DNA of 64,000 nucleotides from Pseudomonas oleovorans subsp. oleovorans (GTDB taxonomy: Bacteria > Pseudomonadota > Gammaproteobacteria > Pseudomonadales > Pseudomonadaceae), in the NCBI RefSeq assembly GCF_002197815.1, contig NZ_NIUB01000014.1, positions 1-64,000 of the forward strand, written 5' to 3'. Position 1 is the first letter of the stretch, and every line of letters begins with the position of its first letter. The notes beneath the pieces are model-generated. The model saw only the letters and a program-made list of their open reading frames with translations, made no database searches and was not told where the DNA came from. Position numbers and translations under genes: made by a program. Below are positions 3,028-27,035 of the stretch, piece by piece.

Positions 3028-4245
3028 ATGGCGGAAAAAGCTCTAAAAACCAGTGTGTTCACCTGGGAAGGCAAGAACAAAAGCGGTGCCGTCGTCAAGG
3101 GGGAGCTCAGCGGGCAGAACCCGTCCTTGGTCAAGGCGCAACTGCGCAAACAGGGGATCAATCCGACCAAAGTACGCAAAAAGGGGGTGTCGCTCTTCAG
3201 CGCAGGCAAGAAGATCAAACCCATGGATATCGCCCTGTTTACCCGGCAGATGGCGACCATGATGAAAGCTGGCGTGCCACTGCTGCAGTCCTTCGACATC
3301 ATCTCAGAGGGCTTCGACAACCCCAACATGCGCAAGCTGGTCGACGAGGTGAAGCAGGAGGTGGCTGCTGGTAACAGTTTTGCCGCCTCGCTGCGCAAGA
3401 AACCACAGTACTTCGATGAACTGTATTGCAACCTGGTTGAGTCTGGCGAACAGGCCGGTGCCCTGGAAAACCTGCTGGACCGAATTGCCACCTACAAAGA
3501 AAAGACCGAAGCGCTGAAGGCTAAGATCAAGAAGGCGATGAACTATCCAATCGCTGTTGTGGTGGTCGCCATCATCGTCTCAGCCATTTTGCTCATTAAA
3601 GTTGTACCGCAATTCGAGGAAGTTTTCGCCAACTTCGGCGCTGAACTACCTGCCTTTACGCTGATGGTAATAGGCATATCGCAATTTCTTCAGGAGTGGT
3701 GGTTCATTTTTCTGATTGCAATCATCGCCGCTGCCTTTGCATTCAAAGAAGCGATGAAGCGCTCGCAGAAACTGCGCGACTCGGTTGACCGTGGCGTACT
3801 GAAACTGCCAATCGTCGGCGACATTCTTTACAAATCTGCGGTAGCCCGCTTCGCACGCACACTATCAACGACTTTTGCCGCTGGCGTGCCACTGGTCGAT
3901 GCGCTGGATTCGGTCTCCGGCGCCACCGGTAATGTGGTGTTTAAGAATGCGACCAACAAGATCAAAGCAGATGTATCTACCGGCATGCAGCTTAACTTCT
4001 CAATGCGCACCACCGGCACCTTCCCCTCCATGGCCGTGCAGATGACCGCTATTGGCGAAGAGTCTGGCTCGCTGGATGAGATGCTCGATAAGGTAGCGAG
4101 CTTCTATGAAGCAGAAGTGGACAACATGGTTGACGGCCTGACCAGCCTGATGGAACCCATCATCATGTCCGTACTGGGCGTACTGATCGGCGGCCTAATC
4201 ATCGCCATGTACCTACCTATCTTCCAGCTGGGCGCCGTGGTTTAA
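3028..4245 (+). CDS. pilC: Type IV pilus inner-membrane platform protein PilC
   Basis: Polytopic platform protein that couples the PilB/PilT motors to pilin insertion. The 405 residues match the family length. Two GspF/PilC repeats are visible, each followed by hydrophobic segments (for example around residues 173-195, 210-240 and a C-terminal segment near 375-400). Typical family sequences are FTRQMATMMKAGVPLLQ and FARTLSTTFAAGVPLVDALD, one per repeat. The gene starts two bases after the pilB stop and its own stop abuts the pilD start, so translation of the three is probably coupled. Confidence 0.97.
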   Translation: MAEKALKTSVFTWEGKNKSGAVVKGELSGQNPSLVKAQLRKQGINPTKVRKKGVSLFSAGKKIKPMDIALFTRQMATMMKAGVPLLQSFDIISEGFDNPNMRKLVDEVKQEVAAGNSFAASLRKKPQYFDELYCNLVESGEQAGALENLLDRIATYKEKTEALKAKIKKAMNYPIAVVVVAIIVSAILLIKVVPQFEEVFANFGAELPAFTLMVIGISQFLQEWWFIFLIAIIAAAFAFKEAMKRSQKLRDSVDRGVLKLPIVGDILYKSAVARFARTLSTTFAAGVPLVDALDSVSGATGNVVFKNATNKIKADVSTGMQLNFSMRTTGTFPSMAVQMTAIGEESGSLDEMLDKVASFYEAEVDNMVDGLTSLMEPIIMSVLGVLIGGLIIAMYLPIFQLGAVV

Positions 4246-5324: not shown

Positions 5325-5407
5325 GATCGCGGTACACGCGGTTCGCATCATCCAGCAATCCCCCCTACAATCGCGGCCTTGAGCAGTAACGAGACCGCAT
5401 TGGCGTT

Positions 5408-14087: not shown

Positions 14088-14152
14088 GGGCACCAAACCT
14101 ACACCAACGAAAAAGCTGATGCCAATCAGATAAGCACTATAAGGCGGTCTTG

Positions 14153-14233
14153 CGTGGGAGCCCCGCCCCGGGGCGAAGCTTGTGGATTTGTGCTGAACGC
14201 ATGATCGATTCGCCGCGAGGCGCGGCGCCTACA
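14153..14233. repeat. REP-type palindrome
   Basis: CGTGGGAGCCCCGCCCCGGG ... CGCGGCGCCTACAG. The gap 14088-14653 is gene-free and packed with palindromes and one miniature element. Just upstream, 14116-14132 (GATGCCAATCAGATAAG) resembles the end of that miniature element and may be a remnant. Confidence 0.75.
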
Positions 14234-14274
14234 GATACGTAGTGCTCTTTCGAGCGACACACACGCCGAACGGA

Positions 14275-14340
14275 TAGGCGTTCCGCCCCGGGGCGAAGCT
14301 TTTCGTGTCCCCCGGTTCGCGGCGGGGCGCCGCTCCTACA
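14275..14340. repeat. REP-type palindrome
   Basis: TAGGCGTTCCGCCCCGGGGC ... GGGGCGCCGCTCCTACA. Second REP of the same orientation downstream of the PilZ gene, ending 20 bases before the interrupted terminator. Confidence 0.75.
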
Positions 14341-14360
14341 GAGAGCCTGTACCCGCAACG

Positions 14361-14561
14361 AAAAACGGAGCCCGCAGGCTAATGCTGATCAGATAAGTTC
14401 GTCACCATCCCCTCCTACTTGCAGTAGAGGGGGCGCTTTTCGTAGGAGCCAGCTTGCTGGCGATGCTTTTTATGGCGGATCGCCGGCAAGCCGGCTCCTA
14501 CAAAAATCGAGTGCAACGGCTTAACTGACTGGCATTAGCCCGCAGGCTCCGTTTTTTCATC
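14361..14561. terminator. Terminator hairpin split by a mobile element
   Basis: Left half AAAAACGGAGCCCGCAGGCT (14361-14380) and right half AGCCCGCAGGCTCCGTTTTTT (14537-14557) flank the miniature element. If the element and one 12-base duplication are removed, the site reads as a stem AAAAACGGAGCC / GGCTCCGTTTTT with loop CGCA: a perfect bidirectional terminator. It would have served the PilZ gene and ettA. With the insert, the two halves are about 155 bases apart. Confidence 0.75.
14381..14536. mobile_element. Miniature inverted-repeat element (MITE-like), copy 1
   Basis: 156 bp with terminal inverted repeats AATGCTGATCAGATAAG (left) and AATGCCAGTCAGTTAAG (right end read inversely). The insert is flanked by the 12-base direct duplication AGCCCGCAGGCT (14369-14380 and 14537-14548). 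It encloses a short palindrome and a full REP-type hairpin (about 14441-14502). It encodes no protein. Copy 2 at 25923 differs by three substitutions and one deletion. Confidence 0.85.
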
Positions 14562-25461: not shown

Positions 25462-25938
25462 ATGCAGATCCAACTGCTCCCCACCAGCGCCGAACAGCTG
25501 CCGCTACTGGCCAACCTCTACCAGTTCTACGCCTACGAAAGCTCGGACTGGGAGCAGGAAGACGTGGAGACGGACGGTCGCTTCTACATCCACCACCCCC
25601 ACCTGCAGCGCTATTGGCAGGAGCCGGGCTGGAGCGCGCAACTGATACTGGTCGACGCCTTCATTGCCGGTTTCCTGCTGATCGAACAGAGCGAGTTACC
25701 CGGTCTTGATGTGCCGGAGTTCGCCGATCTGTTCATCCTGAAAAAGTATCGTCGCCAAGGCATCGGTCGCGCCCTGGTACAGCAGGTAATGGGCGATGGC
25801 AGGCCCTGGCTGCTGCGTTTCTACCGCCAGGATGAGTTGGCCTGCGCGTTCTGGCAGCAGCTGTTGAGCGAATGGCCCAGACCGGCGCGCGAAGTGTGGA
25901 CGGAAGAAGAGGCGGACGGGCTAATGCTGATCAGATAA
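25462..25938 (+). CDS. GNAT acetyltransferase with its C-terminus replaced by a mobile element
   Basis: 158-residue GNAT-fold acetyltransferase of unknown substrate. The acetyl-CoA loop is visible in FADLFILKKYRRQGIGRALVQQVM (RxxGxG/A). The last five codons (LMLIR and stop) belong to the miniature element inserted at 25923. Beyond the element, after a 13-base duplication, the frame resumes as LLTYLINPPVH and TGA (26089-26124). That is almost certainly the original tail. The protein lost 11 residues and gained five, and the catalytic core is intact, so it may still work. The ATG at 25462 fits the start of the GNAT fold. Confidence 0.85.
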   Translation: MQIQLLPTSAEQLPLLANLYQFYAYESSDWEQEDVETDGRFYIHHPHLQRYWQEPGWSAQLILVDAFIAGFLLIEQSELPGLDVPEFADLFILKKYRRQGIGRALVQQVMGDGRPWLLRFYRQDELACAFWQQLLSEWPRPAREVWTEEEADGLMLIR

Positions 25939-26077
25939 GTTCGTCACCACCCCCTCCTACTTGCAGTAGAGGGGCGTTTTTCGTAGGAGCCAGCTTGCTG
26001 GCGATGCTTTTTATGGCGGATCGCCGGCAAGCCGGCTCCTACAAAGATCGAGTGCAACGGCTTAACTGACTGGCATT
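25923..26077. mobile_element. Miniature inverted-repeat element (MITE-like), copy 2
   Basis: 155 bp, about 97% identical to copy 1 at 14381. Same terminal inverted repeats and internal REP-type hairpin (25981-26042). It is flanked by a perfect 13-base direct repeat AGGCGGACGGGCT (25910-25922 and 26078-26090). It lies within the 3' end of the GNAT gene and provides a new stop codon. If the ends are set one or two bases further out, the duplication shortens to 11 bases. Confidence 0.88.
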
Positions 26078-26088
26078 AGGCGGACGGG

Positions 26089-26124
26089 CTGCTCACTTAT
26101 CTGATCAACCCGCCCGTACATTGA
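26089..26124 (+). pseudogene. Displaced 3' end of the GNAT gene
   Basis: Eleven codons plus stop (LLTYLINPPVH, TGA) that would continue the GNAT frame if the element and one copy of the 13-base duplication were removed. Now untranslated. Confidence 0.8.
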
Positions 26125-26134
26125 AAACGTCTGA

Positions 26135-26198
26135 TCGCAGGGGCCCACTTGTGGGCGATCAGCCTTTCACCAACACGCCGGCAAACCGGCTTCTACGA
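26135..26198. repeat. Degenerate REP-type palindrome
   Basis: GCAGGGGCCCACTTGTGGGC ... GCCGGCAAACCGGCTTCTACG, a weathered copy of the REP family just downstream of the original end of the GNAT gene. Confidence 0.6.
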
Positions 26199-26199
26199 C

Positions 26200-26478
26200 T
26201 CAGCCCTTGCAGCCATTGCCACAACCGCAGCACTGCCCCGCAGCGCGTTTGAGCTGGCGCGCCAGCTCGTCCTTCATTGCCACGCGGTTGAGTTTCAACG
26301 CGCTGAGGGCGACGTCATCGAGCAACTCGATACCGTCCTCGATACGGCAGATGCGCTTGTCCAGTGCTTCGTATTCTTCGGCCAGGCGCGAGAACTGTTC
26401 ATCGCTCTGGCGCAGGCGCTGCAGTTCGTTGCGCAGTTCGGGGAAATCATGAACCAGCGGATGATGGTCGACGTGCAT
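26200..26478 (-). CDS. YdcH/DUF465 family protein with Cys-rich tail
   Basis: 92-residue soluble helical hairpin protein: MHVDHHPLVHDFPELRNELQ, then FSRLAEEYEALDKRICRIE and LSALKLNRVAMKDELARQL, the DUF465 pattern. Unusually, it ends CCGCGNGCKG, with four cysteines in ten residues, which could bind a metal. A paralogue lies immediately upstream (26547), 69 bases away. Function of the family is unknown. Confidence 0.8.
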   Translation of the reverse strand: MHVDHHPLVHDFPELRNELQRLRQSDEQFSRLAEEYEALDKRICRIEDGIELLDDVALSALKLNRVAMKDELARQLKRAAGQCCGCGNGCKG

Positions 26479-26546: not shown

Positions 26547-26795
26547 TCAAGCACTGCCCGCCTTGCGCAACAGTTCGGCGATCTCGTCCTTGAGCGCCAC
26601 CCGCTGCAACTTCAGGCCCTGCAGGATCAGATCATCCGCAGCCTCACGCCCCGCCTCGATGGCGTAGATACGCCTGTCCAGTGCTTCATAGTCACTGGCC
26701 AAACGTGGAAAGTGCGGGTCGCTGTGCAGCAACGTGCGCAAGGCATCGTGCTGCTGCGGAAACTCTCGACTAAGCGGATGATGTTCGAGCGGCAT
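26547..26795 (-). CDS. YdcH/DUF465 family protein
   Basis: 82-residue paralogue of the next gene: MPLEHHPLSREFPQQHDALR, FPRLASDYEALDRRIYAIE, LQGLKLQRVALKDEIAELL. It lacks the cysteine tail. The tandem arrangement suggests local duplication; one promoter may serve both. Confidence 0.8.
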   Translation of the reverse strand: MPLEHHPLSREFPQQHDALRTLLHSDPHFPRLASDYEALDRRIYAIEAGREAADDLILQGLKLQRVALKDEIAELLRKAGSA

Positions 26796-26821
26796 GGAGG
26801 ATTCTCCGGAAAGGGTTTCCT

Positions 26822-26881
26822 TAGGGTCTGTTGCCGTTTCGACGCGAGCCGCGTTGCTGCGCGAAACGGCAACAGACCCTA
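26822..26881. repeat. Short palindrome, possible solo form of the palindromic-arm family (F)
   Basis: Perfect 20-bp arms TAGGGTCTGTTGCCGTTTCG and its complement around a 20-base loop. Arm length and the TAG start match copies A-E, but the core is missing. It lies just upstream of the YdcH pair. It could also be an operator or a terminator. Confidence 0.65.
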
Positions 26882-27035
26882 GCCTAGTCGAAGCTGCGCC
26901 GAATGCTGCAGCGCAAGGAGTTACAAGCCCTTGCGTACCTGCGCAGCCCTCTGAAACAAAATGTTGCAGCCTTGCTGCAATATCACCTGTCCTTTTGCGT
27001 TAATTTTATCGGCCGTTCGTCACTAGCCCACCTAC

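Follow-up and report, generated by a model that had tools for sequence, protein, structure and literature searches.

The insert and the interrupted GNAT gene

The window (the whole stretch of DNA that was analyzed, 64,000 nucleotides) contains a gene encoding a GNAT-family acetyltransferase, the end of which is interrupted by a small insert at positions 25922-26078 (157 bp, TAATGC...GCATTA), with boundaries that were set by comparison with other copies and with the flanks. A second copy lies farther upstream. The features are as follows.

25462-25938, + strand: gene for a GNAT-family acetyltransferase, in which LMLIR and a stop stand in place of the last 11 codons (Pfam PF00583; relatives)
25911-25921, + strand: left copy of the target duplication, GGCGGACGGGC, 11 bp, or 13 bp with the shared T and A (repeat scan, copy comparison)
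25922-26078, + strand: non-autonomous miniature element of the IS4 subgroup, 157 bp, TAATGCTGATCAGATAAGT...CTTAACTGACTGGCATTA (comparison of copies, ends, and duplications)
25922-25940, + strand: left terminal repeat, TAATGCTGATCAGATAAGT (25 exact matches in the genome; reversed control, 0)
25952-25981, + strand: terminator-like stretch, consisting of a hairpin (25952-25974), CG, and a T-run (25977-25981) (folding)
25983-26042, + strand: REP doublet (REPIN-like hairpin) in the element core (repeat scan; fold of -47.0 kcal/mol; core-only matches elsewhere)
26061-26078, - strand: right terminal repeat, TAATGCCAGTCAGTTAAG on this strand (34 exact matches in the genome; reversed control, 0)
26079-26089, + strand: right copy of the target duplication, GGCGGACGGGC (repeat scan, copy comparison)
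26089-26124, + strand: displaced GNAT tail, LLTYLINPPVH and a stop (ORF reading; intact in relatives)
26095-26107, - strand: TGATCAGATAAGT, 13 bases identical to the left end of the element, inside the displaced tail and older than the insertion (motif scan)
14380-14537, + strand: second window copy, 158 bp, 10-bp duplication GCCCGCAGGC; located within a terminator hairpin that has an A-tract and a T-tract (copy comparison, target scan)

The interrupted protein is 158 aa long and ends in ...EADGLMLIR. An earlier note on this DNA had described the paired ends, a perfect flanking 13-base repeat, a displaced but readable tail, the exchange of the last 11 GNAT codons for LMLIR, and a REP-type hairpin inside the element; all of these were found at the positions it gave, the hairpin being the REP doublet and the intact tail being present in relatives. 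No transposase ORF was found within the element, in agreement with its view that the element is non-autonomous and that a transposase would have to act in trans. The size that it gave, 155 bp with a 13-base duplication, did not stand. The repeat itself, AGGCGGACGGGCT, is perfect (25910-25922 and 26078-26090), but comparison across the family indicates an element of 157 bp and a duplication of 11 bp. The duplication can be read as 13 bp because two bases (T and A) are common to the element and the target, and the shorter element results when both are assigned to the target. According to passages of PMC2266710, the first base of IS4-subgroup ends is relaxed. Boundaries of 159 bp (CTAATG...CATTAG) with a 9-bp duplication were ruled out by comparing ends and duplications across copies.

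Inside the element, the terminator-like stretch forms a 10-pair stem with one mismatch, and 46 bases fold at -14.2 kcal/mol. A stricter terminator scan of the element did not list this stretch, and listed instead a REP arm (25989-26002) followed by GATGCTTTTT. The only terminator found in the element is on the + strand, with none in the opposite direction. Directly 3' of the GNAT gene is a second REP-like doublet (26138-26197), followed by small reverse-strand ORFs at 26200-26478 and 26547-26795, the latter encoding a DUF465 protein. A palindrome of about 60 bp (26820-26882), with AACGGCAACAGACCCT ending both arms, is probably a dispersed repeat, since similar sequence flanks 193-bp elements at two other loci (L015 and L094). 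The sole Rfam match at the locus, to a microRNA family (26820-26878), was below threshold (26.9 bits, cut-off 90) and was rejected as an artefact of this palindrome.

A search with the GNAT protein gave matches in 191 of 298 genomes of the genus, and 30 loci were read, namely that of the own genome and the best 29 others. The locus was uninterrupted in 28 of the 29 other genomes, many of them with the tail LLTYLINPPVH or close forms, and the insert was present only in the own genome and in G270. The exact 13-base target occurred once in five of the 28 uninterrupted loci and twice in both filled loci. G078 contained an exact empty site with the target once and an identical tail in frame (...EADGLLTYLINPPVH), as the earlier note had expected of sister strains; over 3450 bases, its locus was 99.1% identical to that of the own genome along the first 1961 bases up to the site, and 88-91% identical beyond. 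The G270 locus with the same insertion was identical at 3426 of 3450 bases, and the insertion is therefore older than the split from this sister genome. The insertion, which had been called fresh, thus appears from these comparisons to be recent within the genus, but it predates that split. Real transposition, on the other hand, is borne out by the empty sites in 28 of the 30 loci and by the many copies with duplications; neither of the grounds that had been named against it, the lack of an empty site or of a further duplicated copy, applies.

The element family and its candidate helper

When 231 bases of the region were compared with the own genome (4.85 Mb, 109 contigs; 40 of 168 candidates scored), at least 26 near-full-length copies were identified; apart from the window copy, 24 of them showed 94-100% identity and one 87%. 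Two partial copies were also present, as well as many matches to the REP core only, which did not reach the element ends. The main-family unit TAATGC...GCATTA measured 157-159 bp across these copies, and 21 of the 24 copies of this size were flanked by a 10-11 bp duplication (at most one mismatch), with none in the other three. A search for the termini with up to three mismatches gave 45 (left) and 72 (right) sites in the genome, versus 0 for the reversed patterns. The genome harbored 39 paired-end elements of 146-193 bp with several different cores, and 27 ends were unpaired. Most of the unpaired ends were examined: the one on contig 46 led to an insertion sequence, that on contig 9 to a remnant of the same IS, and a few to further small elements. 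Unpaired ends on contigs 2, 13, 19, 45, 46, and 63 adjoined group II intron sequence (contig 13 by eye), most of them near contig ends.

Several copies showed unusual arrangements. Just upstream of the second window copy, positions 14117-14348 contained an apparent relic of a similar element (TGATGCCAATCAGATAAG after an A-tract), followed by REP-like repeats. Three tandem copies with the 10-bp duplication between them occupied one terminator in the own genome (L020, 1166-1994), with two copies in G255 (L217) and one in G270 (L202); the array at L020 reflects either repeated insertion into the regenerated target or slippage. At L007 and at L203 of G270, the left and right flanking repeats were reverse complements of each other in both genomes, as if the hairpin apex had been inverted. 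Another small element, with ends TAATGCTGTTCACTTAAG and a different core (L111, 739-935), was likewise located in a terminator. Group II intron pieces adjoined the terminators of elements or of the IS at six loci (L064, L084, L102, L109, L112, and L113), most near contig ends; Rfam intron matches were obtained in all of these except L064, where an element copy appears by eye to be cut after the REP hairpin by an intron-like start. It seems that the introns use hairpins brought by the elements.

The 159-bp element was 100% identical in five genomes (G255, G270, G078, G202, and G063). Among the 15 relatives searched for the element, five had no match and four had core-only matches; element DNA had no match in plasmids. 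G270 contained at least 21 copies, and of 20 further copies read there, 18 were at sites that are used in the own genome (15 shared and three half-shared, that is, with one flank differing in register) and two were elsewhere. In 28 compared pairs at sites shared between species, the elements matched at 152-157 bases and the flanks were 89-100% identical, except for the right flank of L014 (77% in both its comparisons).

The earlier note had also suggested a search for a larger element that shares these ends and has a transposase; one with ends of the same type was found, namely a 1426-bp insertion sequence of the IS4 subgroup with a 443-aa transposase. In the own assembly, the only full copy of this transposase is at contig 46 (matches to PF13006, PF01609, and NF033592), and the 5' side of its IS is cut by a group II intron. 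Intact IS copies (1426-1427 bp) were found in G255, a single-contig genome, and related copies in G064; a P. mendocina transposase was 98% identical to that of the own genome. The IS carries TAATGCCAGTCAGTTAAG at both ends, in accordance with the rule -AATR--------WTW---- in Table 1 of PMC2266710, which defines the subgroup, and its size is within the 1400-1650 bp of the subgroup. A single ORF encodes the transposase, in which D133, D209, and E314, as well as Y307, R310, E314, and K321, were invariant in nine sequences, with the D(60-110)D(100-150)E and Y(2)R(3)E(6)K spacing given for the subgroup in PMC2266710. Duplications at 10 IS-sized elements of G255 and G064 were 10-11 bp in five cases, 9 bp in one, and 13 bp (with a mismatch) in one, with none found in three, while those of full-size relatives (see below) were 9-14 bp, and 10-13 bp, the range of the subgroup, at 51 of 54 sites. 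The IS10 and IS231 subgroups, which have CT ends with a 9-bp duplication or CAT ends, were rejected, since the element begins with TAATG and has a 10-11 bp duplication.

The window element combines a length of 157 bp, inverted ends, a target duplication, 26 copies in the genome, and the lack of its own transposase gene with the presence of a related autonomous element, of which the transposase is intact in the same genome and the IS is intron-cut; these are the attributes of a miniature inverted-repeat transposable element (MITE). Its right terminal repeat is identical to both ends of the IS. At its left end, 5 of 19 positions differ from both ends of the IS, and the true helper may therefore be another IS4 relative. 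At E <= 1e-20, the transposase had no match in eight of the 10 genomes searched, including G270 and G078, indicating that element copies persist in genomes without a detected helper.

Terminators as targets and as cargo

Most copies have one half of an intrinsic terminator (A-tract, GC-rich dyad, and T-tract) on either side, as exemplified by the second window copy with its flanking halves aaaaacggaGCCCGCAGGCtccgtttttt. An earlier strict score for symmetric stems detected terminators at 20 of 46 own sites and at 3 of 20000 random positions; it was replaced by a classifier with a fixed hairpin-plus-T-run rule because stems that were off by one base had been missed. With this classifier, 19 of the 24 own copies of 157-159 bp were in terminators, compared with 129 of 4000 random window positions. 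The window copy and L004 were among the five misses; the other three are those of the tandem array, whose outer flanks, as judged by eye, form a terminator. Other small own elements were in terminators in 12 of 22 cases (four of nine 146-bp elements and none of three that measured 191-193 bp), and IS-sized elements of G255 and G064 in 9 of 10.

The same preference was observed in full-size relatives. For these, 87 loci were read, namely 80 of 368 from a transposase-alignment scan of species genomes (49-98% identity) and seven plasmid loci, which gave 54 distinct sites with both ends and a duplication; the remaining 33 loci, many of them incomplete, gave no site. Terminators were found at 50 of the 54 sites (177 of 3000 random positions in the same loci), and terminators on both strands at 44 (17 of 3000). 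Moreover, the center of the duplication was within 1 bp of the center of the best hairpin at 45 of the 54 relative sites, at 17 of 21 sites of the own main family, and at 8 of 14 sites of other small own elements, versus 63 of 2000 random positions. Among the bases next to the duplication, A predominated at positions 7 to 5 on its upstream side (frequency 0.93-0.94) and T at positions 5 to 7 on its downstream side (0.85-0.89).

This preference extends to IS4 of Escherichia coli, for which matches occurred at 5360 places in 2659 of 5426 E. coli genomes. Nineteen loci (88.8-100% nucleotide identity) were read, consisting of K-12 and 18 that were hand-picked, and hence non-random, among 80 listed matches, with three plasmid loci among them. 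They represent 11 distinct sites, five loci sharing the K-12/B-type site and three the adhE site; the terminator sequence is nearly identical in L315, L320, and L317. For IS4 and its near relatives, eight of these 11 sites were terminators (3' of adhE, ogrK, typA, glcA, and bamD, between pdeA and nupC, between rraA and zapB, and one plasmid site), and the adhE terminator was entered in both orientations. By the classifier, the K-12/B-type site (5 of the 19 loci), bcsG, and one E. marmotae plasmid site were not terminators.

The full-size elements also carry terminator sequences of their own. An inward terminator was present at the 5' end in all 54 relatives (internal controls, 76 of 1080) and at the 3' end in 53 of 54 (37 of 1080), and in the IS of the helper family the terminal repeat itself forms the 3' hairpin. 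The distance from the end of the 5' hairpin to the next ATG was exactly 3 nt in 43 of 54 elements. To the ATG of an ORF of 400 aa or longer, it was no more than 5 nt, likewise in 43 of 54. In some miniature copies the T-run is degraded. From these arrangements we infer that the full-size relatives would exchange the host terminator for their own.

The target of the window copy, AGGCGGACGGGCT, is not a terminator by the classifier; it is a gene tail with only weak A/T-rich arms and no T-run, and the copy is an off-target exception to the family rule that shows the price of such a landing, a shortened acetyltransferase. The 13-base match to the left end in the displaced tail lies five bases beyond the duplication, and the same bases are present in three empty sites (L023, L024, and L028). 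An exact match this close to the insertion is unlikely by chance, given an expectation of 0.46 in the window for up to two mismatches. As a cause of the off-target landing this pseudo-end is doubtful, since its orientation is unlike that in the tandem arrays and offers no simple mechanism. A survey lists "IS4 - N-acetyltransferase" among the most over-represented IS-gene pairs (PMC9208149).

Interpretation and relation to known systems

These results suggest, with a probability of about 0.85, that the insert is a MITE that was moved in trans by an IS4-subgroup DDE transposase choosing bidirectional intrinsic terminators, and that elements of this family carry terminators of their own. The transposase would recognize a two-fold-symmetric target of A-tract, GC-rich dyad, and T-tract, and, judging from the comparisons, so would those of the subgroup members sampled. 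The duplication (9-14 bp in relatives) would correspond to the hairpin apex, as staggered cuts fall symmetrically about the hairpin center. Insertion would disrupt the host terminator, and a full-size IS would bring one inward-facing terminator per end, the 5' one ending about 3 nt before the transposase start codon. With inward terminators at each end, transcription from neighboring genes should stop again and the transposase should be protected against read-through. One such terminator, together with the REP hairpins, would be retained in the miniature element. The earlier note missed the terminator of the element and, above all, the terminator-centered target preference of the family.

Insertions within genes are mostly lost, and random insertion with survival of only those copies that lie in terminators between genes might also yield the observed distribution. 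Passages of PMC2718517 indeed read the tail-to-tail bias of Pseudomonas repeats as selection. Survival alone is nevertheless insufficient to explain duplications that are centered to the base on hairpins (45 of 54 within 1 bp versus 63 of 2000 random positions) or the entry of the same adhE terminator in both orientations, and this explanation is very improbable. Even less credible is a spread of the element as a REPIN by a REP-associated tyrosine transposase (RAYT), with the outer ends incidental. A REPIN is a mobile unit bounded by the REP doublet itself. Such a doublet does form the element core, and REP-only matches are numerous in the own genome and in relatives, but the conserved units are bounded by IS4-type repeats and flanked by 10-11 bp duplications, the same ends recur in sister elements whose cores differ, and core-only matches stop short of these ends. 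The window element was accordingly not classified as a REPIN, since its unit extends to the outer repeats and has a duplication.

A refinement that is compatible with the target rule, although we regard it as possible rather than probable, is that the transposase reads the A- and T-tract arms (bent DNA) at a fixed spacing, the hairpins being incidental to the arms of terminators. The strong A and T frequencies around duplications would fit such a reading, as would the A-tract that is retained at some exceptional sites and the conservation of target arms published in parts of PMC2266710; the GC-rich dyads that are centered to the base at most sites, and own copies in hairpins with short A/T arms, are against it. 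Returning to the choice of bidirectional terminators, a broader proposal seems fairly probable, namely that the IS4 subgroup, including the textbook IS4, is a terminator-exchanging lineage. Its transposase would read symmetric intrinsic terminators, possibly in extruded hairpin form, as landing sites, one inward terminator per end would replace the broken one, and miniature derivatives would multiply at such sites and then serve as targets of group II introns.

Landing in terminators with terminators of their own may explain why these elements do little harm, and suggests a route by which a common transposon group reaches high copy number. The strong, "spectacular" conservation of target arms in subgroup IS4 was reported in 2008 in passages of PMC2266710, where the word terminator is absent from the main text; a literature search, for which ISfinder and its encyclopaedia were outside the scope, found no paper calling an IS4-type target a terminator. 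The earlier work thus anticipates the pattern, and what is added here is the identity of the target and what the elements carry. This would give the 2008 observation a functional meaning, the landing site being a transcription stop signal, and yields a testable rule of insertion at the center of a bidirectional terminator. Insertion tools might find a class of safe sites in such terminators, and a word of caution applies to intergenic repeats, some of which may have taken the place of gene-end signals.

Among known systems, IS4 of E. coli and its subgroup share with the helper the size class (1426 bp here), -AATR--------WTW ends, 10-13 bp duplications, a single-ORF DDE transposase with YREK, and, as found here for IS4 itself, terminator targets, whereas the window element lacks a transposase and has a REP core and a diverged left end. 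ISVvu2 and ISSba6, IS4-like elements of Vibrio and Shewanella plasmids, respectively, encode transposases that are 58 and 53% identical and have the same end type, terminator targets, and terminators at both ends, but they are full-size and autonomous and occur in other hosts. Class C group II introns insert beside terminators. The intron pieces found here, assigned at the group level only, likewise adjoin element hairpins; such introns are retroelements that go after the hairpin, in contrast to a DDE transposon that cuts through its center. ISRm22 of Sinorhizobium REPs is an IS4-family element with hairpin-type targets, as described in PMC1525189, but it targets REP sequences rather than terminators and is placed in the IS4Sa subgroup in PMC2266710. 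The MITE-like repeats R0 and R2 of P. fluorescens are also small, repeated, intergenic, and palindromic, but the relevant passages of PMC2718517 tie them tentatively to other transposases and read their position bias as selection.
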